Source: a virus. From it: a stretch of DNA of 30,892 bases. Both the position numbers and the translations under genes were made by a program. The notes under the pieces were generated by a model. That model saw nothing but the letters and a program-made list of their open reading frames with translations. It did no database searches and was not told the origin of the DNA. Below, one piece after another: positions 3,219 to 19,042 of this stretch. The stretch's first letter is position 1; every line of letters begins with the position of its first letter. The DNA lies in IMG/VR virus record IMGVR_UViG_3300044645_000245, positions 1-30,892 of that record. One strand, given 5' to 3'.

Positions 3219-3219
3219 C

Positions 3220-3594: not shown

Positions 3595-3599
3595 ACTAC

Positions 3600-3608: not shown

Positions 3609-3630
3609 AAATTCTGTTTTTTTCCCAAAA

Positions 3631-3657
3631 AGAAAAACCGCCTCCGAAGAGACGGTT
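3631..3657 (-). terminator. Rho-independent terminator with UUCG tetraloop
   Basis: On the minus strand the RNA would fold as AACCGUCUC-UUCG-GAGGCGGUU: 9 pairs with one G-U wobble, closed by the very stable C(UUCG)G tetraloop and followed by UUUUUC. It lies 33 bases past the tail-tube candidate stop and before the 124-aa gene, so it would limit read-through from the abundant tail gene into the minor genes. Confidence 0.85.
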
Positions 3658-3689
3658 AATCTACCTACCTATAACGAGCCACGAAAGCA

Positions 3690-4202
3690 TTAAGTAGTAA
3701 GACCTGCAATGATACCACTTGCAACCTCAGGAGCGAGTTGTTTTTCGCTACCTGTGATAGTCAAAGTGTAACCACTACGGTCTCCCTGAGCAGTACCAGT
3801 TGCAGCAGTACCGCCTGTAACATCACAACCCTGTGTGCGACCCAAGAGCCAATACTTATCGTTAGCATCTTGAACAACAACCAACAAAGTGTTCTGAGCG
3901 AGAAGCAGAATCTCATTACGAGTATTCGCTTGGAGTTTATTAAGAACGATGCTGAGTTCCTGAGCGTAGAATACTGTTCCGTTTTCTACAGAAGCAGTAA
4001 TAGTCTCAGTCAAAGCACCTGTATTCTTAACTAACTCATATTTACGGAATACCTTACCTGCTGATTTTGTGATAGCAGAAACGATACCAGAAGCTTCGGT
4101 GATTGCAGTTACGTTACCTGATTCAATCATCCATACCGCTTTGATACCACCCAAACTATCCTTACAATCTAAGGTGTATCCCTGAGTTAAAGCACAAGGC
4201 AT
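3690..4202 (-). CDS. Probable major tail tube protein
   Basis: A 170-aa protein starting MPCALTQGYTLDCKDSLGG, with KVFRKYELVKNTGALTET near residues 50-67, and ending in the beta hairpin GYTLTITGSEKQLAPEV. The segment in which a strand is followed by TGSEKQ and an APEV end resembles single-domain siphophage tail tube proteins, which polymerise around the tape measure. Two Cys near the N-terminus and one at TQGCDV may be structural. Strong terminators lie on both sides (4223-4248 and 3631-3657), so it forms a single-gene unit, as expected for a highly expressed virion protein. The tape measure gene is over 2 kb away, which is unusual. Alternative: a capsid decoration protein. Confidence 0.6.
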   Translation of the reverse strand: MPCALTQGYTLDCKDSLGGIKAVWMIESGNVTAITEASGIVSAITKSAGKVFRKYELVKNTGALTETITASVENGTVFYAQELSIVLNKLQANTRNEILLLAQNTLLVVVQDANDKYWLLGRTQGCDVTGGTAATGTAQGDRSGYTLTITGSEKQLAPEVASGIIAGLTT

Positions 4203-4222
4203 ATTATTGAATTTATTAAGTT

Positions 4223-4248
4223 AAAAAGTGGGGGGTGATTAGCCCCCC
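4223..4248 (-). terminator. Strong terminator after the major capsid gene
   Basis: On the minus strand GGGGGG-CTAATCA-CCCCCC is followed by AC and TTTTT. It starts six bases after the capsid stop codon. The 6-bp all-GC stem plus U-tract is a textbook intrinsic terminator, and it separates the capsid gene from the tail-tube candidate. Confidence 0.88.
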
Positions 4249-4254
4249 GATTTA

Positions 4255-5196
4255 TTAGATGATGAAAGAAGCAACCTCATCGAGGAAGGCTACGTTTACA
4301 CCGAGTTTGAACTCAGCTACAAAACGAACCTCATCAGCTTCTTTAGCGTAGAACAACTCGTAACGCTCTTCTTCGTTCAGAAGGTCTGTACCGAGGAAAG
4401 CATTGCTCAAACGCATAGCATACAGCTTGCTAACACCATTCAGACCTGGAGTAGATACTACTTTGATAGAAGTACCTGGCAGAACGAACTCGCTATCAGC
4501 TTTACCATCGAAAGAGTAGTTGAACATATTAGCGTTCTTCAGAGCGATGGTGTAAGTGCGGAATACATCCTGAGACATAAAGATAGTCATATCATCTTTA
4601 GCTACAACCTGAGCAGGAATAGCACGATACAGAGCATCTACAATCGCAACTACGTTAGCAGCAGTGATAGAAGTAGCAGGAGTTCCGTAGTAAGTTGTGT
4701 TGTTAGCTTCAACAGCAGAAGAACCAATCAGCTTAACAAAACCATCAAACTTGTTCAGGTTTACGTTAGCAGAAGCGGTATCACCTTGCCACAAAGCAGT
4801 CTCCAACTGAGCAGCGATACGAGCAGACTTCTTGTCGTTGTACTCAGCAGCGAAAGCGATAGAATCGTAGCGGCTTCCTTCAGGAAGAGCCTTTTGCAGA
4901 TACTTGCTCTCAAGAGATTTAGGACACAGAGACTCGTTTACTTTGATCTTACCAACAGTCACAGTACGTTGTGTGAAAGTAGTAGTACCAGAAGCGTTGA
5001 ATCCGCAAGTACCACCTGCTTGGAAGATAGCATCGGTATCCATAATGTTGATTTTCTCAGAGGATTTAACCCCTACCATTACGTTACCTTGTGCCTTAAT
5101 CAGAGAAGCGGTTTTTGCACCGAGTACAGAACTCGTAACCAAGAGTGCTTCATTCTCTTTGGTATAGTTGGTTAGTGCGGTTACATCAAATGCCAT
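4255..5196 (-). CDS. Major capsid protein (HK97-fold type)
   Basis: A 313-aa protein starting MAFDVTALTNYTKENEALL. Features include the N-terminal helix, the segment TQRTVTVGKIKVNESLCPKS (residues ~76-95), the central ALWQGD, and the C-terminal beta-rich end (VRFVAEFKLGVNVAFLDEV). This arrangement is typical of Bacteroidetes phage major capsid proteins with the HK97 fold. It forms the icosahedral shell, assembled around the scaffold encoded just upstream (26-bp gap) and probably processed by the upstream protease. The gene is followed directly by a strong terminator. The leader reads ATTTA-CAACA-ATG, matching the 5-nt spacing of the late leader motif although the 9-mer itself is degenerate. 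Confidence 0.88.
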   Translation of the reverse strand: MAFDVTALTNYTKENEALLVTSSVLGAKTASLIKAQGNVMVGVKSSEKINIMDTDAIFQAGGTCGFNASGTTTFTQRTVTVGKIKVNESLCPKSLESKYLQKALPEGSRYDSIAFAAEYNDKKSARIAAQLETALWQGDTASANVNLNKFDGFVKLIGSSAVEANNTTYYGTPATSITAANVVAIVDALYRAIPAQVVAKDDMTIFMSQDVFRTYTIALKNANMFNYSFDGKADSEFVLPGTSIKVVSTPGLNGVSKLYAMRLSNAFLGTDLLNEEERYELFYAKEADEVRFVAEFKLGVNVAFLDEVASFII

Positions 5197-5222
5197 TGTT
5201 GTAAATTTTAGATTTTAGATTT

Positions 5223-5804
5223 TTATTTTGCGTATTTACTCAAAAAGTTATTAATACGAGCGTCTTTGCTCGGTACTACTTTGTTGAATGTTTGCTTAGG
5301 TTTCTCGGTAGCATCGGCAGAAGGAGTCTGAATCAGTTGCAAAACAACATCAGTAAGTTCTTTGATAGCAGCCGAAAACTTTGCTTCTGCTTCTGCCATC
5401 TTAACTTCTTGTGCTTTTTTGCCCTTCTTCATATCCTCGATTTGAGCTTCCATCTCTGCGATTTTCTTACTCAACTCCTCATCTACTACTTCTTCAACAG
5501 GAGCAGCTTCAGGTTGTTTGATTTCAGTAATCACAGAATTCTCATCAAGTACGATAACCATTCCATCAGCGAGTTCGTGTTCGCCAGCAGGAGCAGGACT
5601 TTCTTGACCTGCATCATCTACGAGCATAACCTTACCACCGACTTCGAGCTTATCCATCTTGATCTTCGCTCCGTTCTTGAGTACGTATTCTTTGTACTCA
5701 GGAGCAGCAGGCTCGATTGATACCTCAATCTCCTGTGCTTGGACAGGCTGAGGAACTTCAGCGAACATCTGCTTGATTTGCAAGAGTGCTTCTAAAGGGG
5801 TCAT
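5223..5804 (-). CDS. Probable capsid scaffolding protein
   Basis: I chose the ATG at 5804 (MTPLEALLQIKQMFAEVP, 193 aa). The frame is open up to 5891, but that extension would run through the terminator hairpin at 5854-5879 and add an unlikely hydrophobic leader. The protein is acidic and Ala/Glu/Pro-rich, with a small beta domain (EYVLKNGAKIKMDKLEVGGK) around residues 37-90, a coiled coil (LSKKIAEMEAQIEDMKKG) near 112-129, and a basic C-terminal end (PSKDARINNFLSKYAK) suited to binding capsid. Position between protease and capsid genes, coiled coil and composition all fit a scaffold. It would be expected to leave the head during maturation. Confidence 0.75.
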   Translation of the reverse strand: MTPLEALLQIKQMFAEVPQPVQAQEIEVSIEPAAPEYKEYVLKNGAKIKMDKLEVGGKVMLVDDAGQESPAPAGEHELADGMVIVLDENSVITEIKQPEAAPVEEVVDEELSKKIAEMEAQIEDMKKGKKAQEVKMAEAEAKFSAAIKELTDVVLQLIQTPSADATEKPKQTFNKVVPSKDARINNFLSKYAK

Positions 5805-5853
5805 AAAATAATTTAACCATAAATAGGCTAAGGTGCTGAATGTTACCACATAG

Positions 5854-5879
5854 AAAAGGGGAGCGTAGAAACGCCCCCC
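5854..5879 (-). terminator. Terminator between protease and scaffold genes
   Basis: On the minus strand GGGGGGCGT-TTCT-ACGCTCCCC forms a 9-bp stem with one mismatch, followed by TTTTCT. It lies about 33 bases after the protease stop and about 50 bases before the preferred scaffold start. It argues that the scaffold/capsid pair is transcribed partly apart from the upstream tail genes. Confidence 0.8.
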
Positions 5880-5912
5880 GATTTTAACCAAAAACTAAAC
5901 GCTATGAGACTA

Positions 5913-6803
5913 CTAAGATACTTGATGTAAGATATCTATAATATCCTGCATCATTTTCTGTGGATTACTTATTCCGCTCTTCGAATAGTTAAAGACCCCC
6001 TCAACTGAGAAGCCTTTTAGTTTACCTTCTTTAACGAGTTCCCATACATCCTCATTCTCGACTTTGAACGAACCGAACCAAGAGCCATCCTTTACATCTT
6101 CAAATCCCTTCATCGCTTTGATCCCTCGCTTTTCATCGACTATCCAACTCTCAAACATTGTTACTCCTTCCACTGTCATTCCGTTATCGTGCATCAGATT
6201 TACGTTCGACTGATAACCCTTCTTGAAATACTTCTGAGCGATTTTCTTGATAGTGTCTGCGGTGAATACAACGTAATATTCGCCGCTTGAATCGTATCGG
6301 TAGATAGGAGTATCTGCTAACATCAACGGTCCAGAGATAATTCTTTCCTCTTCATCCTGAATCTCAAAGCTCATCTTCTCCGATTGGCGAATCTTAGACT
6401 CAGCCCAACTTAAAGCAGATTTACCACCCCACGCATCGTACATCAACTGACCGCAGCCATCTCCGTAGCCTTTAGACTTATCTGCGTTGGCTTCGTGCCT
6501 ACTCAGGAAAGAATACATACGCTTAATAGTTTCTAAAGAGATAGGCTCTCCGTTCGCTAATTGATTGGCTCGGAGTTTACCGACAGGAGTACCACACGAA
6601 CCCCATCCGTTTTCTTCTACCCATTTCAGAGCGTTCTTTGCGTTGTTCTTAACCGACTCAGGATAATCACTATACGAGTCAGCGAAAGCCAAAAATGACC
6701 GCTCTATCGCAGGTCTATCTACTAAAGCCACGAAGTCCACCTCTACGTTGGATTCTTCGTCTTCGTTTATATCGAGTCTGTAAATTGGTAATTCCTTTTC
6801 CAT
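5913..6803 (-). CDS. XkdF-like prohead protease with an inserted domain
   Basis: A 296-aa protein. The N-terminal strand (VDFVALVDRPAIERSFLAF, residues ~22-40) and the C-terminal half (GPLMLADTPIYR, LMHDNGMTVEGVTMFESWIV, GSWFGSFKVENEDVWELV, LKGFSVEGVF) fit the XkdF-like putative serine protease family, which matures phage heads. Between them, around residues 46-140, lies a separate module (WVEENGWGSCGTPVGKLRA, LETIKRMYSFLSRHEA, GYGDGCGQLMYDAWGGKSAL) seen in other phage head proteins. The likely active-site His is in LMHDNG and the likely Ser in GFSVEG, but assignment is tentative. It starts with the ATCTATTTA-N5-ATG leader right after the tape measure stop. Confidence 0.75.
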   Translation of the reverse strand: MEKELPIYRLDINEDEESNVEVDFVALVDRPAIERSFLAFADSYSDYPESVKNNAKNALKWVEENGWGSCGTPVGKLRANQLANGEPISLETIKRMYSFLSRHEANADKSKGYGDGCGQLMYDAWGGKSALSWAESKIRQSEKMSFEIQDEEERIISGPLMLADTPIYRYDSSGEYYVVFTADTIKKIAQKYFKKGYQSNVNLMHDNGMTVEGVTMFESWIVDEKRGIKAMKGFEDVKDGSWFGSFKVENEDVWELVKEGKLKGFSVEGVFNYSKSGISNPQKMMQDIIDILHQVS

Positions 6804-6808
6804 ATTCT

Positions 6809-6817
6809 TAAATAGAT
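6809..6817 (-). promoter_or_regulatory. Late leader motif ATCTATTTA before the protease gene
   Basis: ATCTATTTA on the minus strand begins right after the tape measure stop TAA and an extra A, and ends 5 nt before the ATG at 6803. The very short gap makes a full promoter less likely here and favours a translational role. Confidence 0.5.
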
Positions 6818-6818
6818 T

Positions 6819-8702
6819 TTAGTTTAATCTTGCTGCTCTGTTAATACGAGTGATTCTTTCCTGAGAGTTACTTACATCTGATTCCAATACATAAGAGCGA
6901 TTTGTAGCAGAACCTAATTGATTAATAGACCTCTGATCTAATTGGGTTACTGTATTCTGAATCGGAGCTTGAGGAGAAATCGGAGCAGCACCGCCACCAA
7001 CTGAAGCCGAAGGGATGGCAGGAGTACCACCACCGCCTCCAGGTACTTTTACCGCAGCAATAGCCTTTACTGATTTAATACCTGAAGCAATAATAGCTGC
7101 TACGTTAATAGCTTTAGCTACGAAGTCAAACGGAGAAGGCAGAACGGACTTTTGTCTGAGTGCTTCGGTAGCACCTGAATAAGTATTAATCAAAGCCTGA
7201 GCGATACCGAGAGCCTTACCTGCTGCGGTTTGCTGACCAACTATCTCACCGAGTTTACCTAAAGCATCTCCAACCTCTGAAAATTGCTGCTTTCTAAAGT
7301 CTGCTTTTTGCTTCTCTATCTCCTTCTGAGCTTCGGCTGCTGCTGCTTCCGCTTTAGTTTCTGCATCTAACTGAGCAAATAAATCATCGAACTCTTTTTG
7401 ATTAGCATCTGCTATTCTTTTCTTTTCTATTTCTTCTAACTCCTGTTCTCTTTCTAATCTCGCAAAAATAGCATCGAACTCAGCCTGAACTGCTGCTGCT
7501 TTCGCCTCTGCTATGGCTTGATCTCTTAGCTTTTGTTCTTCTACTAATAGCTGAGTCTTTAGCTTTTCACTCGCCTTCAGCTCCTCTATTTCTAACTTCC
7601 TATTCTCGAAGTTTATCTCAGCTTGTCGAATCCTTCTTTGATTCTCATCTGTAATAGCATTTAACTCAGCTTCCTGACGTGCTTTCCTAATATCTTCTTC
7701 AGCTTGCTTATTAGCAGCTACACGCTCCTGAGCTGCTGCTTTATTCTTTTCTGCTGCCTCTTTATTCTTAGCATCTTGTTTATCCTTAGCTTCTTTATCT
7801 ATCTTATTTAATCTATTCTGCTCTTCGATGTCTAAAACTTCCTTCTGAGTTTTTAGGTCACGAAACTTTTTCAGCTCATCAAGAGTAAGTTCACCCTTTG
7901 CTTTTGCAGATGTACGAAGAACATTTAATTCATTATCTATCTGCTGCTTTTTAAGTGCTAAGATTTCCTTCTCTTTATTACCTACCGCAGTTAAAACATC
8001 TATCTGATTCTGAAGGCTTGCATTAACTACTTCATTTTGTTCTGCGAGTTTCTTCTGAGCCTCTGCTGCTTTCTCACTTGTTGAAGTCCATTCAGATATC
8101 TTGCCAATAAGAGTAGTTAAACCTACTACGAGAAGTCCGATACCTGTAGCAGCGATAGCACCCTTTAGAATTGTAAACGCTCGACCTGTACCAACAGTCG
8201 CTACCCCGAAAGCCTTTTGCAAAGTGATAGCTATCGCAGTCGCAGCGTTATTCGCCTTCTGAAAGATAGCAGTAGATTGAATAATAGCATTTAATCTCTG
8301 AAAGTCTTTAGCCGAATCCCTAATCGTACTCAACCCCTGAGACAAAGCGAGAGCAGACTGAACTTTCAATAAAGCCTGTTCTACTTGCTTACCCTCTGCA
8401 CCCAATAAACCGAACGCACCTTGTACAGCACTTATCCCACCTGCAACAGAACTAAGAACCCCCGTAAAGGCTTGGAATTTTTTACCTGGGTCGAATAGAT
8501 CAGCAGTCTCTTTAGCTTCTTGAATTGAATCTTTTAGACCTGCTACTTTCTGAGCAGCAGCGATAGCCTCTTTAGAGTATTCTCCGAAATTCTTTTGAGC
8601 TTGTATTAATGCAAGATTGGCTTCCTTCAAATCTTTTTTAAGGTTGCCAATAGTTTCCCCGCCTTGTACTTCTATTTTTATACCTACTGTTTCCTGTGCC
8701 AT
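6819..8702 (-). CDS. Tail tape measure protein
   Basis: A 627-aa protein starting MAQETVGIKIEVQGGETIGN. It has an N-terminal alpha-helical region (LKKDLKEANLALIQAQKNFG), a hydrophobic segment near residues 180-200 (AATGIGLLVVGLTTLIG), a long Lys/Glu/Ala/Gln-rich coiled-coil core (residues ~210-460), a second hydrophobic stretch, and a Gly-rich linker (VPGGGGGTPAIPSASVGGG). Two copies of a ~26-residue unit (EFDAIFARLE, then EFDDLFAQLD) lie near residues 405-435. It sets tail length and helps DNA entry; the size suggests a short-to-medium siphovirus tail. Its ATG shares one base with the stop of the 689-aa gene. Confidence 0.9.
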   Translation of the reverse strand: MAQETVGIKIEVQGGETIGNLKKDLKEANLALIQAQKNFGEYSKEAIAAAQKVAGLKDSIQEAKETADLFDPGKKFQAFTGVLSSVAGGISAVQGAFGLLGAEGKQVEQALLKVQSALALSQGLSTIRDSAKDFQRLNAIIQSTAIFQKANNAATAIAITLQKAFGVATVGTGRAFTILKGAIAATGIGLLVVGLTTLIGKISEWTSTSEKAAEAQKKLAEQNEVVNASLQNQIDVLTAVGNKEKEILALKKQQIDNELNVLRTSAKAKGELTLDELKKFRDLKTQKEVLDIEEQNRLNKIDKEAKDKQDAKNKEAAEKNKAAAQERVAANKQAEEDIRKARQEAELNAITDENQRRIRQAEINFENRKLEIEELKASEKLKTQLLVEEQKLRDQAIAEAKAAAVQAEFDAIFARLEREQELEEIEKKRIADANQKEFDDLFAQLDAETKAEAAAAEAQKEIEKQKADFRKQQFSEVGDALGKLGEIVGQQTAAGKALGIAQALINTYSGATEALRQKSVLPSPFDFVAKAINVAAIIASGIKSVKAIAAVKVPGGGGGTPAIPSASVGGGAAPISPQAPIQNTVTQLDQRSINQLGSATNRSYVLESDVSNSQERITRINRAARLN

Positions 8703-10771
8703 TATGCGTATGTTGTTTCTATTACTTTAATAAATTCACACTTAGTAGTATCTTCTACCATTGGGTTATAGTCCATAACCTTATTCAATCTCCATAGTGA
8801 ACCATCTATCCAGATAGGTCGAGAGAAATCAAGATTGTAGATATCGATATCCGTTAACCGCACGTTACAGGTAAGTAGCTTAGAATCTTTATCGGAAATC
8901 TCAGCAACGTAATCTCCCCAATATCCGTTAAATAAATTAGCGGAAGGATAAGGGTTACTGAGAGTAAAATAAATCTCTTTAGGAGCACCGAAGTTAATAT
9001 CCGCAGTAGGAGTGTAAGGGTCGTTTAAGTGTCCACCATATCCGTAGGTAGTAGTGTTTAGTAGGTTACTTGTGCCATCCTCAATCTTGTATGAAGCAAC
9101 TCCTGTTATCTTCTTAACCTGAAGGATACGGATAACGCTATCCATCTTATCTTCTGATGGGTTATTGCTTTGAGTATTGCTTCGCTTTAGAATAATAGAA
9201 TGGACTTTATCATCTCCTGCGTAAAGAATCAAAGGAGTAGCTGCGAATACTATCTCAGCAGTTTGTCTTTCATTAGCAAACTCGTAACCTGTATCCTCTA
9301 TGAAATCTCCATATCCTTCGTTGTATTTCTTAAAGTAATTCTCATTATAGAAATCAGCATCCTGCTTGTATTTGTACTCAAAGAACCTTCCGTTAAGTTC
9401 GCTCATCGGCTTTAGTCTAAAAGGCTTAGACCTATCAATCTTTATACTCCAATCTATTGTATCATTGAAATCGTAATAGTCGATGTAAGGAGAAATAATA
9501 AGATGCTTTGTCTTATCTGTGCTTTCTGTTACATACAGGTTAAACATCTTCACAATCGAAGAGAAGAAGTCTTTTTGAAATACGCCTCTTGGAATTGTTT
9601 TATTTATCTGTATTGTTTCTCCAAGGTTCAAAACAACGGCTTGCGTTACATCAGTATTTAACTCGATGTTACCGCTATTTATGAATATGCGATAATCTAA
9701 AGCGTTATTCTGTCGAATGGCTATAACCTCAAAGTAATCATTGGTAGCGAATGTACCTGTACCGCTAAAAGTAAAATCAAAACTATCGTATAGATTTTCA
9801 ACAGATGGGGAAGTAGCTATATCAGTAGTTCCATTTTTTCTAACTACGAAATACATTGTTTCTGCACTATCCTCGTATGAACCGTTAAGAGTAGCAGTTA
9901 CAGTAATCGAAATAGTCGAAGCACCTGTATAAGTGAATCGAGTATTGCTAAGAGATGCAGTAAAGCTACCTGCTATTGAAGGAGATGGATACTCTAACTT
10001 GATATTAGAGCCAGCAGCAGCGTAATAATCGGTAGTATCGAACTTAGGTAAAACATCAGATTTGAAAGCAGTAGTAGAATACGCACTCAAGTCCTTCTGA
10101 TTGTTAGGGATTACTAACCTCTTGAATAAGTTAGTATTGAAGAACGAACTCTCCCACGTATAGCCTGCTCCTGTGATAATCTTATCGATGTACTCACGAA
10201 CGAACAAAGCAGGTCGGAAAGCCTTATACTGCCAATCCTTTTTACCTACTGAAACCTGACCATAGTCAATAAGCGGATAGAAGTAACCGCTACCATCTAC
10301 TTGATTCCAAGAGTTAGTTATATTGGTTACATTCCAAACGTGATTATACGCAGAGAAATCTAAATCCTCTATTTTACCATTTGCAATAGCAGAAACGAAT
10401 CCACCAAGCTCACCGAATACAGCACACTCGTACTCTATGCTTCCGTTATCGATAATTATCTCAAGCAGTCGGATAATCCCTTTGAAGATTTGTATCTTAT
10501 CTACATAGACAACACAAGCAGCAGACTTGGCTGCGTTGAAGTTGTAACCCACGTTATCGGCTGTAGGATTGTAGAAGTTACTATTACCGAACTCGAAGAT
10601 ATGCCCGAATAGTTTGTTATTAGTTGCATTACCTGGGATTACTATTGTTTTGGAAAAGTTGGTATTCCGAGAAGAGAAGTCCTTAACATCATCGATATTA
10701 TAGGTAAACTCTGCTGAGATATCCTTGTAAAGGTCGAGGCTTTGATTCTCTATGTAGATTTCAGTTCTCAT
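8702..10771 (-). CDS. Large tail-tip / baseplate hub-like protein
   Basis: A 689-aa, beta-rich protein beginning MRTEIYIENQSLDLYKDISA, with the motif DVKDFSSRNTNFSKTIVIPG near residues 29-48. I recognise this opening from Bacteroidetes siphophages, where the protein lies next to the tape measure and is called only structural. The middle (residues ~260-350) is rich in Ser/Thr and looks like an Ig-type carbohydrate-binding insert (SFTASLSNTRFTYTGAST). Late segments (PYPSANLFNGYWGDY, RPIWIDGSLWRLNKVMDYNP) fit a hub that carries the tail tip. It overlaps its neighbours by 4 nt and 1 nt. Position suggests distal tail or receptor-contact roles; no enzymatic motif was seen. Confidence 0.72.
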   Translation of the reverse strand: MRTEIYIENQSLDLYKDISAEFTYNIDDVKDFSSRNTNFSKTIVIPGNATNNKLFGHIFEFGNSNFYNPTADNVGYNFNAAKSAACVVYVDKIQIFKGIIRLLEIIIDNGSIEYECAVFGELGGFVSAIANGKIEDLDFSAYNHVWNVTNITNSWNQVDGSGYFYPLIDYGQVSVGKKDWQYKAFRPALFVREYIDKIITGAGYTWESSFFNTNLFKRLVIPNNQKDLSAYSTTAFKSDVLPKFDTTDYYAAAGSNIKLEYPSPSIAGSFTASLSNTRFTYTGASTISITVTATLNGSYEDSAETMYFVVRKNGTTDIATSPSVENLYDSFDFTFSGTGTFATNDYFEVIAIRQNNALDYRIFINSGNIELNTDVTQAVVLNLGETIQINKTIPRGVFQKDFFSSIVKMFNLYVTESTDKTKHLIISPYIDYYDFNDTIDWSIKIDRSKPFRLKPMSELNGRFFEYKYKQDADFYNENYFKKYNEGYGDFIEDTGYEFANERQTAEIVFAATPLILYAGDDKVHSIILKRSNTQSNNPSEDKMDSVIRILQVKKITGVASYKIEDGTSNLLNTTTYGYGGHLNDPYTPTADINFGAPKEIYFTLSNPYPSANLFNGYWGDYVAEISDKDSKLLTCNVRLTDIDIYNLDFSRPIWIDGSLWRLNKVMDYNPMVEDTTKCEFIKVIETTYA

Positions 10772-11952
10772 CGGTATTGGCTAAATTCTTTACTACCAAA
10801 TTCAATGTCCAACTCAAGGTTATATACCTTATCAACGTAGCGGTTTTTCTGAGTCCATTGGCTTGTACTAATCTTAACAGGAATAAACGTACCTCCATTC
10901 TCCATATACACTTCAGGAGATGCTATAAGGTCTCTTATCCAAGTGTAATCGGTAAGACTAAGCCAATCACTCGTTAGCTTGTAAGTGATTGTGTGCTGAG
11001 TATTAAACTGCACCGAGCCTCCGTTAAATACGTTGTACTGATTCCATCTGAACATATCTGAAGATCGATACTGCCACTCCGCTTGCTCGAAGGATTTGCG
11101 TTCTATGTTTCTACTCTCACGATTAACCAGAGTGAATATCATCGTATCGTATCCACCTACTGAGTTAAGGAAGTGCAGGGGAATATGTGTATGTCGAGGC
11201 TGACAAATCTTTGTAACTGTTACCTCATCCGTATAATCTCCTATAGTATCGTTGAATGTTCTTACTATGTATGATTCTGTAGCTGATGTGATAAACGAAG
11301 AGCCTAAGTAGGTATTAAGTGCAGTAGGTGAAATATCCAAAACAGATATATCACTAACAGAAATAATACCTCCAATAGATGTAGTACCTCCGTTGCTTCT
11401 CGTTACTTCTATTTGCCAATCTACAGGAGTATTAATGTCTGTATTCTGTAGAGTAATAAATAACCTATTCCCTGTCTGATTCGTTTGCAGTTGTGTTTTA
11501 TCTCGCTTGGTTAATAAGTATCCTAAGTACTGACCTTGATACCAAGTACCATCGAAAGCAGCTTTACCTGTTGTGATATTCGGATAGTAGTTAAACGCAT
11601 CTCGCTCATCCTCTCCTAAGTTAGTGTATAAAGTACCTCCGTACTCTTCTCCGAATTGAATAGTATAAGTAACTCGATTTCCTGATCCTAAGTAATTAAA
11701 CGCAGTCTGAGAAGTTGCAGGCTGAAAGTAACTCGCCCAATAGTTACGGATTATCGGTGCTACGTTGAATAATCCTTTGTTGGTAGTAGGCTGAGGGAAT
11801 GATTTTATTCTCGCTACCAATACTGAATTAATATACACATCAAAGACGTACTTAAAGTTACTCTGTCCTGTGTTCGTTGAACTCGCTACATACCACATAT
11901 CCTCGTGAAAGGATTGGTAATTGTTAGGAGCGTTATCTAATGTTATTGCCAT
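10768..11952 (-). CDS. Tail-tip structural protein
   Basis: A 394-aa beta-rich protein starting MAITLDNAPNNYQSFHEDMW. Features are YVFDVYINSVLVARIKSFPQ near residues 34-53, an Asn/Thr-rich centre, the segment ICQPRHTHIPLHFLNSVGGY (~252-271), and RYVDKVYNLELDIEFGSKEF near the end. The RHTHIPLHFLN core and the ending recur in Bacteroidetes phage tail proteins next to the larger hub protein. It overlaps the neck-like gene by 20 nt and the 689-aa gene by 4 nt. It probably forms part of the tail tip; no catalytic motif is visible. Confidence 0.68.
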   Translation of the reverse strand: MAITLDNAPNNYQSFHEDMWYVASSTNTGQSNFKYVFDVYINSVLVARIKSFPQPTTNKGLFNVAPIIRNYWASYFQPATSQTAFNYLGSGNRVTYTIQFGEEYGGTLYTNLGEDERDAFNYYPNITTGKAAFDGTWYQGQYLGYLLTKRDKTQLQTNQTGNRLFITLQNTDINTPVDWQIEVTRSNGGTTSIGGIISVSDISVLDISPTALNTYLGSSFITSATESYIVRTFNDTIGDYTDEVTVTKICQPRHTHIPLHFLNSVGGYDTMIFTLVNRESRNIERKSFEQAEWQYRSSDMFRWNQYNVFNGGSVQFNTQHTITYKLTSDWLSLTDYTWIRDLIASPEVYMENGGTFIPVKISTSQWTQKNRYVDKVYNLELDIEFGSKEFSQYR

Positions 11953-12619
11953 TTCTTATGTTTATTACTACTTCTCTTCCTATTATTTTAGCTACTGCAT
12001 CATTAAACTCTTTTCCGAAAGCGAACTGAGCTGCTTTATCAATGAAGCCTGTCTTTTTAAGACCCTTCCTCTTGATAGAAACAGAGACCGCATACGCAAG
12101 AGATTTAATTCTACTGCTTTCACTTACCATCTTAGATAGACGCTTCCGCTTTCTTTGTACTGGGGATAGATTCTTTTTTTGATCCTCGTTCCTCGATGCT
12201 ATGTTATTTCGCTTCAGCCATCCTTCGATAGCGTTCCGTAAACCGCCTACACGCTCATTCTTAAACGAATATGGACTATCCGATGGACTACCTGAGCGAG
12301 TACCTTTAACTCCCTTATTAACGAAGTCGTAGTATTTAGCTGCTTTAGACTCAGCAGGATAACCGACTGTGATACTTACCGACCCTCCACCTGTTACTAC
12401 ATCTCCGCTTTCGATGTCGCTTGCCAAAGCACCTGTATCTACTCGACCAGATTGGTTGAGATTCTCTTGTACCTTCAAAATAAAATTAGCTGCACTTAAT
12501 ACGAGCAGCTTCTCAACACCTTGTAACTTATTTACATCCTCGAACGCAGCTTTGCTTTGACCCTGTGAGTCTAAGTAACTCAGTACCTCATCCTGTAATT
12601 GTTTAACGGACTTTGCCAT
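11933..12619 (-). CDS. HK97 gp10-like neck / tail-completion protein
   Basis: A 228-aa basic protein. The segment LNQSGRVDTGALASDI (residues ~54-69) and the following strand VSITVGYPAESKAAKYYDFV, with KGVKGTRSG near 98-106, match the layout of HK97 gp10-type proteins, in which a V-D-T-G-L/A element and a Y-E-F-like element are typical. These sit at the head-tail interface or tail end. The C-terminal part is Lys/Arg-rich (SPVQRKRKRLSKMVSESS) and could touch DNA. It overlaps the -1 frame of the chaperone-like gene by 17 nt. Confidence 0.66.
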   Translation of the reverse strand: MAKSVKQLQDEVLSYLDSQGQSKAAFEDVNKLQGVEKLLVLSAANFILKVQENLNQSGRVDTGALASDIESGDVVTGGGSVSITVGYPAESKAAKYYDFVNKGVKGTRSGSPSDSPYSFKNERVGGLRNAIEGWLKRNNIASRNEDQKKNLSPVQRKRKRLSKMVSESSRIKSLAYAVSVSIKRKGLKKTGFIDKAAQFAFGKEFNDAVAKIIGREVVINIRNGNNIR

Positions 12620-12887
12620 TGGCTTTCTTTAACTGCTCTGCTTCGTACTCGTTTTTCGCTTTGAGGTAAGAAAGGTCGTTAAGGAATTGGATTGTAGGAA
12701 TATCGTAAACCTCTTCCATCGTGATTCTCTCGAACTCAGCCACCAATGAGGCTTGATAAATCCATCCAAAGTCTCGCATAAAGTTTGATACAGAACCTCT
12801 GCTTGGTACTTCGTCAAGCTCTTCTCCATCATCTCTGCTACCAAATAATCCTTCGAAGCCTTTATCCAATTCCTGTAAACGAGACAA
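12603..12887 (-). CDS. -1 frame extension of the tail assembly chaperone-like protein (GT-type part)
   Basis: This frame has no ATG at its head; it opens at a run of nine T on the minus strand with TTG TCT CGT (L S R). It encodes a protein-like 94-residue segment (LQELDKGFEGLFGSRDDGEE, DFGWIYQASLVAEFERITME, IPTIQFLNDLSYLKAKNEYE) that looks like the true C-terminal half of the upstream gene. A -1 slip on T TTT TTT (12893-12887) joins 160 residues of the upstream frame to this one, giving a 254-aa fusion like lambda G/GT. The TTG could serve as a weak separate start, but there is no good leader. A base missing from the homopolymer in the assembly would look the same. Confidence 0.72.
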   Translation of the reverse strand: MSRLQELDKGFEGLFGSRDDGEELDEVPSRGSVSNFMRDFGWIYQASLVAEFERITMEEVYDIPTIQFLNDLSYLKAKNEYEAEQLKKANGKVR

Positions 12888-13366
12888 AAAAAAACCACGC
12901 TTCCGAGTACCGCAGTTATAGGAGCTTCCAACAAATCCTGAGCGTAGTCCTCGTGCTTGCTCGCATCGTACTTATCTACCTTCCACCCGAAAAGAGTTTT
13001 CTTCATAGGCATAACCATACAAGCACCGATCCTATGTAGGTTAGCGTTCACATCTTTAGCGAAGTACTTGCTCTCGATATAACGAGCAGCAGGAATTTTA
13101 CGGACATCGTAGATACACTTGTAGCGTTTCTTACCTACCTTAATAAACTTCTGAGGCTCAGGCTTTATCTCTTCGTGAATGAAATCGATAGACTTGAGAA
13201 GTGGGTTTAACTCACCGAGAGGCATAGAATCTATCTGATACTCAGTCATTCCCTTGAGGATAGCCACGCACTTAACCGCTAAATCTAATTCAGTTACGTC
13301 TTTAGACTTCGTGAACAAATCCACGATTTGCTGCCATTGAAATACGTTTACGTTTTTCCAAGTCAT
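12629..13366 (-). CDS. Tail assembly chaperone-like protein, zero-frame product
   Basis: I use the second ATG (13366, MTWKNVNVFQWQQIVDLF) because it is placed 5 nt after ATCTATTTA like other late starts; the ATG at 13372 is the alternative. The first 160 residues look like a genuine folded domain (DLAVKCVAILKGMTEYQIDS, YKCIYDVRKIPAARYIESKY). Past residue 160 the zero frame continues 85 codons with Trp/Ser-rich, unconvincing sequence (KPHWWLSSRESRWKRF), while the -1 frame is protein-like. Position at the start of the tail block fits a chaperone that wraps the tape measure during assembly. The family is inferred from frameshift and position, not from a recognised motif. Confidence 0.65.
   Translation of the reverse strand: MTWKNVNVFQWQQIVDLFTKSKDVTELDLAVKCVAILKGMTEYQIDSMPLGELNPLLKSIDFIHEEIKPEPQKFIKVGKKRYKCIYDVRKIPAARYIESKYFAKDVNANLHRIGACMVMPMKKTLFGWKVDKYDASKHEDYAQDLLEAPITAVLGSVVFFCLVYRNWIKASKDYLVAEMMEKSLTKYQAEVLYQTLCETLDGFIKPHWWLSSRESRWKRFTIFLQSNSLTTFLTSKRKTSTKQSS
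12887..12893 (-). other. Putative -1 ribosomal frameshift site T TTT TTT
   Basis: The minus strand reads GTG GTT TTT TTT TGT CTC in the zero frame, containing T9 (12886-12894). The heptamer T TTT TTT fits the X XXY YYZ rule. A slip of one base back makes the next codon TTG at 12887 and enters the protein-like 94-residue frame. I could not establish a convincing downstream stem by eye. Confidence 0.65.
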
Positions 13367-13371
13367 ACTCA

Positions 13372-13380
13372 TAAATAGAT
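13372..13380 (-). promoter_or_regulatory. Late leader motif ATCTATTTA before the chaperone-like gene
   Basis: ATCTATTTA on the minus strand ends 5 nt before the ATG at 13366. The ~100 bp upstream (13381-13480) separates this gene from the HNH gene and holds a near -7 match, CATATTTG on the minus strand, within an imperfect palindrome GTAAACATATTTGCTTAC. That may be a tail-operon promoter, but no good -33 element was seen. Confidence 0.45.
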
Positions 13381-13480
13381 ATTTTTAGAGTTGTGTCCTA
13401 TGCGTCTTATAGTAAGCAAATATGTTTACTTTTGAGCCGAATAAGTAACATTATCAGCTCACGTTCGCTGTTTGCAAACC

Positions 13481-13948
13481 TCAAGCAAACGAACTATATT
13501 GACCATTCAATTCTAATGATTTAGAGATATAAGCATTTTTAGCCTCTTCTATTGTTTTATATGTACCTAATCTAATCTGCTTATTATTAACCATAATTCG
13601 AGCTGTATAATTATTCCCATTCATAGAAACTCCTTTTGGTAAACTCTTATTCCTCCATCCAGAAGAATTAGCCATATTTTGCATCACAGTACAGGCTCTT
13701 AAATTTTCTATTCTGTTATCGTGTCTATTCCTGTTTATGTGATCTACATATTTTGGCATATATCCATTATGAAGAAGGAATACTATCCTATGAACATAGT
13801 ATAGTTTATTTTTGTGCTTTAATTGAAGATAGTTTCTTTTAGTTGATGGAGATACAGGCTTACCACTATAGTTGTGATTTGTATCACTTTTCCAATACAA
13901 GGTATCGTTCTTGTATTCAAATAATTGTTTTGCTATTTCGTATGTCAT
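13481..13948 (-). CDS. HNH homing-type endonuclease with C-terminal AP2 domain
   Basis: The ATG at 13948 (MTYEIAKQLFEYKNDTLYWK) is preferred: it has the CTATTTA-N5-ATG leader, while the longer frame needs a TTG at 13972. The protein has a small N-terminal module (TLYWK), an HNH core (YYVHRIVFLLHNGYMP, VDHINRNRHDNRIENLR) and a C-terminal AP2-like DNA-binding domain (YTARIMVNNKQIRLGTYKTI followed by EEAKNAY). This is the standard layout of free-standing phage HNH-AP2 endonucleases. It lies between terL and the tail operon, a common landing place. By hand count G+C is 33/120 (28%) at 13501-13620 against 28/60 (47%) in adjacent terL, so recent acquisition is likely. Confidence 0.88.
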   Translation of the reverse strand: MTYEIAKQLFEYKNDTLYWKSDTNHNYSGKPVSPSTKRNYLQLKHKNKLYYVHRIVFLLHNGYMPKYVDHINRNRHDNRIENLRACTVMQNMANSSGWRNKSLPKGVSMNGNNYTARIMVNNKQIRLGTYKTIEEAKNAYISKSLELNGQYSSFA

Positions 13949-13953
13949 ATACA

Positions 13954-13960
13954 TAAATAG
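13954..13960 (-). promoter_or_regulatory. Late leader motif CTATTTA before the HNH gene
   Basis: CTATTTA on the minus strand (GCTATTTA rather than the full ATCTATTTA) ends 5 nt before the ATG at 13948. This makes the HNH gene share the late-gene leader even though its base composition differs. Confidence 0.4.
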
Positions 13961-13981
13961 CAGAATACGCAATTATGTACC

Positions 13982-15133
13982 TTATAGGAAACTATACCTA
14001 CCCTGTCCTGAGTTACGAGTATAGTGATGCCAAGCGAGAGCCAAACTCATAACGCAGTCATCGTGAAACCCAGGAGGAGCAGAATATCTTACTCCTGTTG
14101 CGGTGTACTGATACTCAAAAACCTCTAACTCGTTTACGATATTCCCTTCAGGATAGGTTATCTTTCTTTGCTGAATCGCTGATGATAATCCCTCCATTAG
14201 CTGCTGCTTACTCGTAGAACTGAATTTGAAGCCATTTATAGCCAATCCTTCGCGTTGTAAATCTTCGAAGATAGGATCGCCTACCCCTGTGCTATCTATC
14301 AAAATTGGGGCTTTATTTAGGCTCAGGATAGTTTGCTTTGTTTGTCTCCAATCCTTCTGGAATCTATCGAAATGACAGACAGAGCCATTCCTATCGAGTC
14401 CGATTATCACAGTCCAATCCACCGCCTTAGCTAAGTCCACTCCGTACACTATCGCAGGTTCGGGAGATATGGGGAAAGTACATTGCTTGATGTATGAAGA
14501 ACCGAATGGGTTAGATGAGTTCTCAGCAGGGTTAGCCATATACTCCTGCTCAAAGACCACCTCAGGGAGTTGAGTGCGTGCATCATCTATCTCTCCCTTA
14601 TCGATATAAGGGTTATCGTAGGTAGTAAATCGGAAAGCCTCCCAATCTGGTTCTCCTCCCTTTAAGAAGAGAGAGTAAAAGAAGTTCTTTCCCTTAGGAG
14701 TAGATAGGAATATCGCTCGACCTTTGTAATCGGTTAAGGTAGGGCGGATAGAGTTAAGCCACCCATCTTCGAGATTAGGAATAAAGGAAGCCTCATCCAC
14801 TACAACGAGGTGAAACTTTCTACCTCGCAGGTTATCGAGTCTCTCACCTGTAAAGAAATCTACCGAGCCTGCGTTCGGGAACTTAATAGTGAGTTCTGAT
14901 TTATTGGATTCGAATGGTACTGCTTGAATAAGTCTCTCGAAGAACACACGAGCGAGCTGATAAGTTGGAGTGATATAAGCGACTGACTTACCAAGTAAAG
15001 CATTTGAGATGATTTCTATCTGGCTGAGTTCTGACTTCCCGAATCTTCGACCGCACATAACCACCCTGAACCTTGCTTCGCTGTCAAGTATTCTCTGTTG
15101 GTTAATATGCGGTTCAGGAAGTTCAAGCCTCAT
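13982..15133 (-). CDS. terL: Terminase large subunit
   Basis: A 383-aa DNA-packaging motor. Walker A is CGRRFGKSE near residue 27, Walker B is LVVVDEAS near residue 110, followed by a coupling-like motif FLSTPKGKNFF near 142. The RNase-H-like nuclease domain shows GVDLAKAVDWT (~220), IDSTGVGDP (~277) and HDDCVMSLALA near the end, supplying the usual acidic metal ligands. At 383 aa it is a compact terminase with no extra domains. Its start overlaps terS by 4 nt, so the two subunits are translationally coupled. Together with the portal it pumps DNA into the prohead and cuts it. Confidence 0.95.
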   Translation of the reverse strand: MRLELPEPHINQQRILDSEARFRVVMCGRRFGKSELSQIEIISNALLGKSVAYITPTYQLARVFFERLIQAVPFESNKSELTIKFPNAGSVDFFTGERLDNLRGRKFHLVVVDEASFIPNLEDGWLNSIRPTLTDYKGRAIFLSTPKGKNFFYSLFLKGGEPDWEAFRFTTYDNPYIDKGEIDDARTQLPEVVFEQEYMANPAENSSNPFGSSYIKQCTFPISPEPAIVYGVDLAKAVDWTVIIGLDRNGSVCHFDRFQKDWRQTKQTILSLNKAPILIDSTGVGDPIFEDLQREGLAINGFKFSSTSKQQLMEGLSSAIQQRKITYPEGNIVNELEVFEYQYTATGVRYSAPPGFHDDCVMSLALAWHHYTRNSGQGRYSFL

Positions 15134-15511: not shown

Positions 15512-16696
15512 TTATTCAATAGGTAACCCATTGCGTTTGATTACCAAAGTCGGGTCAAGTTTCTTCATCCTGTCCACAATCACTTGGCAATACTTAGGGT
15601 CAAATTCCATTAACCTTGCCTTACGATTTAATTGTGCTGCTGCAACCATTGTGCTTCCGCTTCCACCAAAAAGGTCTAAAACAATATCATTTTTTTTGCT
15701 ACTATTTTTCATTGCTCGTTCTGGTAACTCAACAGGTTTTTGTGTAGGGTGGTATTCATTTTTACTATCCTTCTTTAATTCCCATACACTTTTTTCATCA
15801 CTTGGACCAAACCATTGAGGACTTTTACCTTTCTTAAATGCATATATAAATGGTTCAAAGTTTGGTATATATTGAGCCATAAAAGCACCTAATCCGCTTT
15901 TTACTTTATACCAACATAAAACTGCTCTTACTTGAAAATTAAGATTAGCAAAAGAATTAAATGTTTCTACTGATTTATTTGTACTATACCATATATAAAA
16001 TGCACAATGGTCGTGTGTAAATATATCTGCATTCATTAAAGCTTCATAAAATAGGTCTGTTAAATTTTCGCCTTGTAGCTTATCATTCTCAATCATTACT
16101 CTTTGATATTTAGGGTCGTGACCTCCTGTATAACTTACACCATACGGAGGATCAGTAAATACCATATCAGCCTTCTCTCCATTCATCAGCTTTGCTACTT
16201 GGTCGCTATCCGTTGAATCTCCACAAAGCAAACGATGCTCTCCTATCTCAAACAAATCTCCTAATACGATATCCGTTTCGATTCCTCCTTCTGGTGCTGC
16301 GAAATCATCTTCCTCTGCTTCTAATACTTCTGCTTCAAACCCAGGTATATCCAAACCCCACTCTTGTAGCTTTTCTGTCTCCCAATTATTCGCAAGGTCG
16401 TTCCAATCCCACTCCCCAAAGCCTACGTTATCCTTAATGATAAACTCCTTCTGTTGTTCTTCCGTTAGGTTGCTTGCTTTGATAACAGGTACTTTATCAA
16501 GTCCTGCTTCCTTACAGGCTTTCAGTCGCATATTCCCACCGAGTACAACCATATCCTCATTAACTACGATAGGTCTAAGCTCAAGCATCTCAGGGAACTC
16601 CTTAATGCTTTGTACGAGCTTCTTAAATTTATCATCCTTAATTATCCTCGGATTATTCGGGTTCGCTTTTACTTGATTAATAGGTAGCTTTATCAT
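15512..16696 (-). CDS. ParB-like domain fused to beta-class DNA methyltransferase
   Basis: I chose the ATG at 16696 because it gives the ATGA overlap with the glycosyltransferase stop (16702 is the alternative). Residues ~1-95 are ParB/sulfiredoxin-like (NPRIIKDDKF, VVLGGNMRLKACKEAG). The methyltransferase has DPPY near residue 182-185 (motif IV) before FGGSGST near 343-349 (motif I), the beta-class order, so it is an N6-adenine or N4-cytosine enzyme. The recognition region between them is unusually AT-rich. It probably protects phage DNA from host restriction or marks it for packaging, given that terS follows directly. No partner restriction enzyme is seen, so it is an orphan enzyme. Confidence 0.92.
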   Translation of the reverse strand: MIKLPINQVKANPNNPRIIKDDKFKKLVQSIKEFPEMLELRPIVVNEDMVVLGGNMRLKACKEAGLDKVPVIKASNLTEEQQKEFIIKDNVGFGEWDWNDLANNWETEKLQEWGLDIPGFEAEVLEAEEDDFAAPEGGIETDIVLGDLFEIGEHRLLCGDSTDSDQVAKLMNGEKADMVFTDPPYGVSYTGGHDPKYQRVMIENDKLQGENLTDLFYEALMNADIFTHDHCAFYIWYSTNKSVETFNSFANLNFQVRAVLCWYKVKSGLGAFMAQYIPNFEPFIYAFKKGKSPQWFGPSDEKSVWELKKDSKNEYHPTQKPVELPERAMKNSSKKNDIVLDLFGGSGSTMVAAAQLNRKARLMEFDPKYCQVIVDRMKKLDPTLVIKRNGLPIE

Positions 16697-17331
16697 AGCC
16701 ATTCTGTTTGATAGATAGTGTAGTTATTTTCTTCTTGATATTTTCCTGTCTCTCTCGCCCATAGATAATCGCACTTGCTTAGTCCTTCATCCTTCATCCT
16801 TCGGTAAGGTGTATCTTGTCCTACATCGTGTCCAATATGTTCTGCTCGCAGTCCGCTTAGATAGTAATTCAGGTGTCCTGTCATTTGTAAGCGGTAAGAG
16901 TAATCTCTATCCTGCATTCCGTATGGATCGTAGGCTTCATTAAAGTAACCTATTTTGTCTATGGCTTTCATCGGTATAAGAACATTCCCGAAGGCTGCTT
17001 CTTGTATGTGTACTTGGAGTCCGTTGATTGTGGTAGGCTCTGAGATACTTTCGACTGTGTGAATCCCTATCATACCAGAATTAGGAATAGTTATCATCGC
17101 TTGTACCATTCTTTCGAGCCAACTATTAGGCATAAGGATATCATTAGCCATTGTAACTACCGCATCGTATGTCCTCGATTGAAAGATTCCGTAGTTAATA
17201 GCTTTAGAGATTCCTTTCATATCGACTATGGTAAAGTCGAAAGGATACCCTGCGTTATTGAAGTTCACATCCTTTACCCGTTGAGTATAGTCGTGCCTAT
17301 CGTAGTCTAAGAGTATGACATTTATGTTCAT
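16693..17331 (-). CDS. GT2-like glycosyltransferase
   Basis: Start at 17331 (MNINVILLDYDRHD) is preferred because it gives an ATGA overlap with the acyltransferase stop; 17340 is the alternative. About 212 aa. The fold shows an N-terminal strand, TYDAVVTMANDILMPNSWLE near residues 54-73 with a D-I-L element where the metal-binding DxD of GT-A enzymes usually sits, and EAYDPYGMQDRDYSYRLQMT near 140 containing the acidic DRDYSYR motif of family 2 enzymes. It likely transfers a sugar to a glycan or virion protein. Donor and acceptor cannot be read from sequence. It is the last gene of the glycan cassette. Confidence 0.82.
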   Translation of the reverse strand: MNINVILLDYDRHDYTQRVKDVNFNNAGYPFDFTIVDMKGISKAINYGIFQSRTYDAVVTMANDILMPNSWLERMVQAMITIPNSGMIGIHTVESISEPTTINGLQVHIQEAAFGNVLIPMKAIDKIGYFNEAYDPYGMQDRDYSYRLQMTGHLNYYLSGLRAEHIGHDVGQDTPYRRMKDEGLSKCDYLWARETGKYQEENNYTIYQTEWL

Positions 17332-17816
17332 CGATTCCATCCTAAATCTTTTACAGGTACTCCTGCGTATTTATGAAATGGTTGTAATTCTGATTTCTTA
17401 CCTACGAAAGCGGAAGCACCTATCATACATCCTTCTGGTATTACTACCTTCTGATGTATAACTGCATTCAGTCCTATGTTAGTATTCTGATGGATAATCG
17501 AATGACCTCCGATTTTCGCACCGCAGCTTATCGTAACTCCATCCTGAATTATCGCATCGTGTCCTACGTGAGAGTGTTTCATCAAGTAGCAGTTCTCTCC
17601 GATGGTTGTATTCTGATGCGTTCCTGAATCGACAGTTACTAATCCTGTGAGCCTTGCTCCTTTCTTGATAATCACTTTACCTACGTTATCCTCTTTACCT
17701 TTCCACTCAGCAGGACCACCGATAATGCAAAGAGGTCCGACATAGACATTATCTTCGATTACTACTCCATCGTAGATTACCGCAGTCGGATGTATGTAAG
17801 CTGATTCGTGTATCAT
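17328..17816 (-). CDS. LpxA-like left-handed beta-helix acyltransferase
   Basis: A 162-aa protein made of hexapeptide repeats (YIHPTAVIYDGVVIEDNVYV, VTISCGAKIGGHSIIHQNTN) typical of left-handed beta-helix acyl- and acetyltransferases. The segment LMKHSHVGHDAIIQDGV (residues ~78-94) matches the LpxA active-site region, where a His acts as general base, followed by the GGH and IGLNAVIHQ repeats. It is shorter than LpxA (~260 aa) because the C-terminal helical domain is missing. It may acylate or acetylate a nucleotide-activated sugar for the flanking glycosyltransferases. Substrate is unknown. It starts 27 bases after the stop of the 66-aa gene. Confidence 0.82.
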   Translation of the reverse strand: MIHESAYIHPTAVIYDGVVIEDNVYVGPLCIIGGPAEWKGKEDNVGKVIIKKGARLTGLVTVDSGTHQNTTIGENCYLMKHSHVGHDAIIQDGVTISCGAKIGGHSIIHQNTNIGLNAVIHQKVVIPEGCMIGASAFVGKKSELQPFHKYAGVPVKDLGWNR

Positions 17817-17843
17817 CTTCCTTGACCTCTGTAATTTCTTTCT

Positions 17844-18044
17844 TTACGATTGTTTTTGTTTCGGCTCTTCTGAGCTTTTCCCCCCTTCCGTTTCCCAAAG
17901 GTTACTTTGTTTGTTGTTAACTTTGCCATATTGTCCTGATGCTAAAATTGCTTTCCATACTTCCATAGCCTTCTCTTTTGTATCATACTGACATTCTCCT
18001 GTACCGATTTTCCACTTTCCGTTCTTACATTGAGTTACTGGCAT
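17844..18044 (-). CDS. Small Lys/Gly-rich hypothetical protein, 66 aa
   Basis: Begins MPVTQCKNGKWKIGTGECQY, where C-x-NGKWKIGTGEC suggests a small beta hairpin with two Cys, followed by a helix (TKEKAMEVWKAILASGQYG) and a polar tail. Short proteins or domains of this form recur in phage genomes, sometimes attached to head proteins. It overlaps the GT4-like gene by 10 nt and precedes the acyltransferase. It could be a small accessory of the cassette, but no function can be assigned. Confidence 0.65.
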   Translation of the reverse strand: MPVTQCKNGKWKIGTGECQYDTKEKAMEVWKAILASGQYGKVNNKQSNLWETEGGKSSEEPKQKQS

Positions 18045-19042
18045 ATAGATTCAAATAATTGTTTTCTAAGGATGTTTACTTTGTGCAGATTAAAGTTCTC
18101 GTTACACCACTCGTAATTTGCTTCTCCGAGTTCTTTTCTATAAATAGCATCCTCGGTTATTTTTTTAATCGCAGGATACCACTCAGTCTGTTTATCTATC
18201 TTGATAACGTGAGGTGCATCATCGTATGGAGGTACGTTAGAAATGATAACAGGAATCTTCTTACACGCAGCCTCTAAGATTTTTAGGTTACTCTTCATTG
18301 AGTTAAACTTCGAATGAACGAGAGGGACTATCGTAGCATCTGCGTTATTGTAGAAGTTCATATACTCGGTTACCTTCTTATTCCTTTCGATATCTCCGAG
18401 CTTCAACCCACAAGTAAAGTAATGAATCATCTTATGCCATACCGCTTCTGAATATCTATTCGGGTTATCGAATCCACACAAACGGAAGTGAACCTTCGAT
18501 TTAAGTACCGAGTCAGATGCTACTTTCTTTAGTGGGTTCTGTAATAGCTGAAGGTCTTTCTCGTGAGTGATTGAACCTGCGTAGATGAAACGAACTTTGT
18601 CGCTATTTGTTACAACATCGGTAAACTGATCCTCTCCATAAGGCAAAGCGTTTGGAACTATTGCTACGTTTGAGTTTATTAGTCTTATCTCATTCCATAG
18701 CCTATCAGTAGTAGTAGTAACCAGGTCTGCTATTTTGATATGGTCGATTACCGCCTGAGTAGGATAAACATCTTTAAGAATGTGCCATTGGTCTAAATGC
18801 CAATAATCATCGATATCGATTACTAACTTGAATCCGTACCTCTCTTTGAAATCTTCTAAGACTGAGATATGAATAGCAGGTATGAATCGATTAATGTAAA
18901 CAATATCCCATCCTTCTTTCAAAGTTTCCTCGCTAAGTACATCAGTTATCAAAGCATAAGCCTTCGGGAGAAAGTGAACAGGAAGCATTAAGCGATGGTA
19001 TCCTACTCCTGAGTTCTGCTGAGTAATTACGAGTATTCTCAT
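18035..19042 (-). CDS. GT4-like (GT-B fold) glycosyltransferase
   Basis: A 335-aa protein. The N-terminal Rossmann half contains MRILVITQQNSGVGYHRLML and, near residue 92, FKLVIDIDDYWHLDQWHILK. The C-terminal half has VRFIYAGSITHEKDLQLLQN (~170) and later ADATIVPLVHSKFNSMKSNL (~235), followed by KILEAACKKIPVIISNV, the usual ExxAxxxPVI donor-site pattern of GT-B enzymes. The NSMKSNLKILEA arrangement is a known variant. It likely uses a nucleotide-sugar donor to modify a glycan; the acceptor is unknown. Its start has a 4-nt overlap with the 92-aa gene, so it belongs to the sigma-headed operon. Confidence 0.88.
   Translation of the reverse strand: MRILVITQQNSGVGYHRLMLPVHFLPKAYALITDVLSEETLKEGWDIVYINRFIPAIHISVLEDFKERYGFKLVIDIDDYWHLDQWHILKDVYPTQAVIDHIKIADLVTTTTDRLWNEIRLINSNVAIVPNALPYGEDQFTDVVTNSDKVRFIYAGSITHEKDLQLLQNPLKKVASDSVLKSKVHFRLCGFDNPNRYSEAVWHKMIHYFTCGLKLGDIERNKKVTEYMNFYNNADATIVPLVHSKFNSMKSNLKILEAACKKIPVIISNVPPYDDAPHVIKIDKQTEWYPAIKKITEDAIYRKELGEANYEWCNENFNLHKVNILRKQLFESICQ

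Follow-up and report, generated by a model that had tools for sequence, protein, structure and literature searches.

A conserved run of nine T residues as the site of a programmed frame change, possibly transcriptional, in a putative tail-chaperone gene of uncultured phages

Introduction

How does a phage gene come to hold two overlapping reading frames that meet exactly at a run of nine T residues and both stay open beyond it, and is the run a decoding signal, a sequencing error or the boundary of a separate gene? The question is raised by a stretch of 30,892 nucleotides from an uncultured tailed phage (IMG/VR record IMGVR_UViG_3300044645_000245, positions 1-30,892), called the window here. 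On its minus strand, positions 12898-12881 read GTG GTT TTT TTT TGT CTC, a sequence with one occurrence in the record. A sequence-only reading of this locus had proposed a programmed -1 slip on the heptamer T TTT TTT in a tail chaperone-like gene, had found it unusual that the zero frame stays open, and had noted that one T missing from the assembly would look the same. The junction sequence, the run, the heptamer coordinates and the frame lengths that it gave are all correct when compared with the letters and with the list of open reading frames.

Frame changes in tail chaperones are textbook ribosomal recoding. In phages of the lambda type, gpG and gpGT are made in a set ratio, G binding the tape measure and T recruiting tail tube subunits (as described in the review PMC5009743). 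In this work, we ask whether the window gene encodes such a pair, what its unusually long unslipped end is, and by which process the frame would be changed.

Results

The gene and its junction

The features on which the analysis is based are the following (window coordinates):

12629-13372, minus strand: zero-frame open reading frame, predicted short G-like product (open reading frame list, relatives, AlphaFold2, below AF2)
12886-12894, minus strand: T9 run, the frame-change site (T9 or T10 in 251 of 256 distinct relatives and 9 of 9 P12024S-type loci)
12887-12893, minus strand: heptamer T TTT TTT inside the run, in phase, the site of the ribosomal alternative (sequence)
12603-12887, minus strand: -1 extension of 94 residues, putative T-like C-terminal domain of the fusion, a helical hairpin (open reading frame list, AF2, in-frame clade)
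12632-12885, minus strand: region read in both frames (synonymous-shuffle test, drop in -1 synonymous divergence)

The zero-frame product has 247 residues counted from the ATG at 13372 and 245 from the ATG at 13366, which is the start kept in relatives (MTW/MNW). Beyond the VFF at the run, this frame continues for 85 further codons (the number counted earlier) up to its stop at 12629, and the -1 frame, which opens at the run, ends at 12603. From ATG 13366, a slip would give a fusion of 160 + 94 = 254 residues, in agreement with the length previously proposed.

Conservation of the run among relatives

Loci were gathered by protein similarity to the N-terminal domain or to the -1 domain separately, with no T run required. 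Relatives are encoded in more than 500 IMG/VR stretches, of which the 80 best for each query were retrieved; the census comprises 256 distinct junctions. Nine Ts are present in 234 of them and ten in another 17, with the -1 offset in all 251. The remaining five are a clade of four with a single-frame fusion and one indel-ridden contig (L064), which shows five Ts and indels throughout its N-domain and was set aside. L064 excepted, every member of the census that bears the offset has a run of at least nine. Compared for a conserved U run against a single frame, as the sequence-only reading had suggested, the relatives keep the run in 251 of the 256 cases and have a fusion without it in four. The idea that decoding moves to the -1 frame in a programmed way and would yield a G/GT-like pair of products is supported by the run and offset kept in these 251, by constraint on both frames and by the clade with the fusion in one frame.

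Homopolymers are error-prone and L064 shows how a run may appear as T5, so one could suppose that a T was lost in sequencing or assembly, or that the gene has decayed. Nevertheless, 234 T9 and 17 T10 junctions among 256 distinct relatives, together with the T9 run of a cultured phage whose genome record is complete, reduce this explanation to a negligible probability; exact conservation across hundreds of contigs excludes the missing-T artefact mentioned at the outset, and a pseudogene with it. We regard a programmed frame change at the T9 run as nearly certain.

In one locus (L388, 3460-3640), the T9 run is whole, much of the overlap is missing and the zero frame stops after 9 codons, which is either a deletion or a chimeric assembly just past the run. 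Regarding the hosts, the sole match in a cellular genome comes from a Chitinophagaceae MAG contig and the cultured relative, P12024S, infects a Persicivirga strain, so that the hosts of these relatives are probably Bacteroidota.

Fused relatives and cultured phages

In the four-member clade (L307, L310, L312 and L313), the N-domain and the -1 domain share a single frame and the T run is missing (the fusion has 239 residues in L307 and 240 in L310), and a zero-frame tail is absent. A tblastn search of INPHARED found no relatives of the window gene; the link to P12024S came instead from a structure search followed by profile comparison, in which the profiles of the P12024S group match the window family in both domains, with E values of 6e-8 and 1e-5. 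In Nonlabens phage P12024S, the homologous gene lies directly after that of the large terminase subunit (TerL) and has T9 and an 81-codon -1 extension, the final 55 codons of which carry a gene annotation of their own. The T9 run is present in all nine P12024S-type loci (P12024S and eight further ones), and the zero-frame tail of this group reaches only 16-25 codons beyond it. In record JQ823122 (L273, 23570-23830), the annotation of P12024S_39 starts at an internal ATG (23663) and the homologous -1 extension begins at the T9 run, so that a frameshift product is probably missing from the record. Flavobacterium phage 6H, a weak structural match, has T6 followed by C and a -1 frame that is closed immediately past the would-be slip, and was for these reasons not counted as support.

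The annotation of P12024S_39 also represents a different reading of the whole family, according to which the -1 open reading frame is a separate gene with an internal start and not part of a fusion. Against this, the -1 frame followed upstream from the junction meets a stop within 12-84 nt in 60 of the 61 representatives and at 210 nt in the remaining one, no Met is conserved near the start of the -1 extensions, and one clade has the fusion in a single frame. The upstream stops and the fused clade rule out an internally started gene, leaving this reading highly improbable. The -1 domain itself is predicted by AF2 to be a helical hairpin, with pLDDT above 90 in the hairpin.

Selection on the zero-frame end

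All but one of 217 complete loci have 49-85 open zero-frame codons beyond the run. When the -1 frame of the window was shuffled synonymously, the zero frame stayed open to its observed length in 0.2% of the shuffles and, in 41 representatives, the observed openness was matched in 0-9% of the trials for each (p 0.000-0.09). Additionally, the synonymous divergence of the -1 frame drops about two-fold in the overlap, from 0.36 to 0.19 for pairs with at least 75% identity and from 0.53 to 0.31 and 0.58 to 0.30 in two other identity bands. In the closest band, bins fall to 0.08-0.14 within the first 30 overlap codons, and divergence recovers about 50 codons past the junction, towards the gene end. 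The AF2 model of the zero-frame product has pLDDT 85-95 in most blocks up to about residue 190, and the first ~40 residues exclusive to this frame are mostly confident helices.

The extension could still be non-functional, its openness being a by-product of composition or of the conservation of the -1 protein. Such a view draws on the far zero-frame end, which is variable and poorly predicted (pLDDT about 50), and on the relatives of P12024S and the L307 clade, with only 16-25 extra residues and none, respectively. It is contradicted by the shuffle results in each of the 41 representatives, by the reduced -1 synonymous divergence and by the confident fold of the first ~40 residues, and we find it very unlikely. 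Given this variable, poorly predicted far end and the short tail of the P12024S group, we place the constraint mainly on the first 40-55 zero-frame codons, roughly the portion over which it is clear in the window (about 12720-12885). Over this portion, the zero-frame end is very likely under selection as a second C-terminus, and the 85 codons that seemed unusual are better described as a selected and folded end.

Transcriptional or ribosomal slippage

The heptamer U_UUU_UUU is in phase in all T9/T10 members and is a good ribosomal slip site. A purely ribosomal -1 slippage on it, as in lambda G/GT and without transcript heterogeneity, would also yield two products, and the tail-chaperone cases documented in PMC5009743 are ribosomal. 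Against this, the run is never cut to 7 or 8 in offset-bearing members. Its 8th T ends the second Phe codon, which is TTT in 217 of 217 sequences, and in 207 of these a T>C change would be synonymous in both frames (Phe stays Phe, Leu TTR becomes Leu CTR) and would keep the heptamer form, as U_UUU_UUC. Even so, this position has 0 changes on a tree of 216 sequences, against 11-37 at other two-fold sites upstream, and well-conserved upstream Phe columns have TTC in about 40% of 61 representatives. It may be that U_UUU_UUC slips worse in these hosts, which could preserve the 8th T on the ribosomal account. The 9th T of the T10 clade lies outside the heptamer, where T>C would alter neither protein, and is invariant, with 21 of 25 two-fold columns varying in the same sequences; this argument comes from a single clade of 14 sequences.

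A conserved downstream stimulatory structure, which is common but not obligatory in ribosomal -1 frameshifting, was not found: RNAalifold on the 110 nt downstream in 61 sequences gave a consensus energy of 0.0, and the mean z of downstream structure was +0.4 relative to windows of the same gene. Long runs are also rare elsewhere. In the other open reading frames of the 61 representative loci, A9+ runs on the sense strand occur once against 13.4 expected, an about 13-fold depletion that 0 of 100 synonymous shuffles equalled, with a sharp step between eight and nine; T9+ runs occur once against 2.8 expected, which is not significant alone. This avoidance of long A/T runs may, however, reflect replication slippage, a caveat to the run-length argument.

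According to Baranov et al. 2005 (PMC1088944), a conserved 9A or 9T length among homologs very likely indicates purposeful transcriptional slippage. Judged from sequence comparison, the length of the run itself appears to be selected, and RNA-polymerase slippage is favoured because the run is never shorter than nine and because the 8th T and, in the T10 clade, the 9th T are invariant. We consider transcriptional slippage to be probably a main contributor to the frame change, and the purely ribosomal alternative to be possible, if rather doubtful. The slip proposed initially holds as a frame change; its ribosomal mode needs refinement, as run-length conservation points at least equally to transcription.

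Genomic neighbourhood and putative function

The neighbouring genes with profile matches are:

13982-15133, minus strand: terminase large subunit, upstream (phrog_2, PF03237)
11933-12619, minus strand: HK97-gp10-like tail/neck protein (PF04883 just over the cut-off; phrog_29822, E 0.001)
6819-8702, minus strand: tape measure protein (phrog_9483, phrog_339, phrog_3336)

With the HK97-gp10-like and tape measure genes downstream, the gene heads the tail block, as had been stated from the sequence; no gene was recognised as that of the tail tube. The family phrog_29822 is that of a P12024S gene located shortly downstream of the frameshift gene of that phage. The first 17 nt of the HK97-gp10-like gene, its ATG included, are also the last 17 nt of the -1 open reading frame (12603-12619, minus strand), an arrangement that could tie translation of the HK97-gp10-like gene to the frameshifted mRNA. 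Over positions 441-15133 of the minus strand, the window has an unusual order: terminase, frameshift gene, tail genes, tape measure, protease, probable capsid and probable portal, the last of these being long (661 residues, judged by eye). Also judged by eye, an HNH-endonuclease-like open reading frame (13481-13972, minus strand) lies between TerL and the frameshift gene, where P12024S has none, and glycosyltransferase-like and acyltransferase-like open reading frames adjoin a ParB/DNA-methyltransferase-like one at 15512-19042 (minus strand).

Pfam and PHROG searches gave nothing significant for the two products of the window, and fold and sequence searches of the PDB gave no match. Among the members, Phage_TAC_7 is matched weakly in 11 of 61 (best E 4.5e-4), the two alignments examined covering residues 4-60 below the curated cut-off, and phrog_166 ('tail protein') is matched weakly in several. 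We take the Phage_TAC_7 matches as a lead and not as membership, and claim no named Pfam TAC family. The layout, the position and these sub-threshold matches make a tail-chaperone role for the two products likely. The two-product gene might instead encode another morphogenesis factor, acting for example with the terminase or the neck: it adjoins TerL in P12024S (with one open reading frame between in the window), three genes separate it from the downstream tape measure gene, and the TAC matches examined as alignments are below the cut-off. Since the layout is typical of G/GT and weak Phage_TAC_7 and phrog_166 matches recur in several members, we think this unlikely.

Discussion

A model for the two products

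In the model proposed here, the two products and their ratio, their chaperone role and the identity of the slipping machine are all inferred. Two proteins would share an N-terminal domain of ~160 residues. Unslipped decoding would give a protein of ~245 residues, with extra C-terminal helices from the zero frame, and a fraction of decoding would enter the -1 frame at the T9 run, giving the 254-residue fusion with the helical-hairpin domain. RNA polymerase would slip on the T9 template and add one U, translation then being normal, and ribosomal -1 slippage on the in-phase U_UUU_UUU may add to the frame change. As in a gpG/gpGT-like pair, the common part and the short form would serve the tape measure as chaperone; recruitment of tail-tube subunits would, to judge from the layout, fall to the -1 domain.

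Overall, we moderately favour a G/GT-like two-product gene whose frame change is largely transcriptional. The complete version of this model, in which both chaperone forms arise by RNA-polymerase slippage on the strictly conserved T9/T10 run and the dual-coded region gives each of them a selected C-terminus, is one that we prefer by a narrow measure. These results suggest that a large phage group may have shifted the slip to transcription, or may rely on both processes. About 50-85 codons would encode two proteins, the unslipped product having its own selected end. A direct test is feasible in cultured P12024S, and the clade with a single-frame fusion and no run is a natural control. The run also provides an annotation rule for hundreds of contigs in which the gene would be split.

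Comparison with known systems

We found no case of transcriptional slippage in phage tail genes in the literature searched, a search outside which most subscription journals fell, and no significant sequence relationship between the window gene and lambda G/GT or other tail chaperones. Most of the window-family protein lies outside the match to PF10109, Phage_TAC_7 (tail assembly chaperone proteins E, 41 or 14). Among the closest known systems are P12024S and P12024L (Inhavirus; phrog_32199, phrog_38404), which share with the window family the homologous N-domain and -1 domain, the T9 run and the place after TerL, but differ in an identity of about 20-26% and a zero-frame tail of 16-25 codons; there, the gene is annotated as two hypothetical genes.

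The resemblance to lambda gpG/gpGT (Xu, Hendrix and Duda 2004, as reported in the review PMC5009743) consists of the shared N-terminus, the -1 change and the location ahead of the tape measure gene. In lambda, the shift occurs near the 3' end of G, whereas 49-85 selected zero-frame codons follow it in the window family; for comparison, the average distance from slip site to in-frame stop (N) in the SEA-PHAGES training data of PRFect is 26 nt (PMC10885494). Unlike lambda G/GT, the window family has an invariant T9/T10 run that goes beyond the heptamer alone.

Shigella mxiE and other T9/A9 slippage genes, as far as they are covered in the accessible texts of PMC1088944 and PMC5009743, resemble the window gene in having overlapping open reading frames joined at a T or A run; one added nucleotide joins the frames, and conserved run length is the recommended sign. 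The cases described there are bacterial or IS genes, whereas the window gene is a putative phage morphogenesis gene and, unlike them, its unslipped product very likely also has a selected C-terminus.
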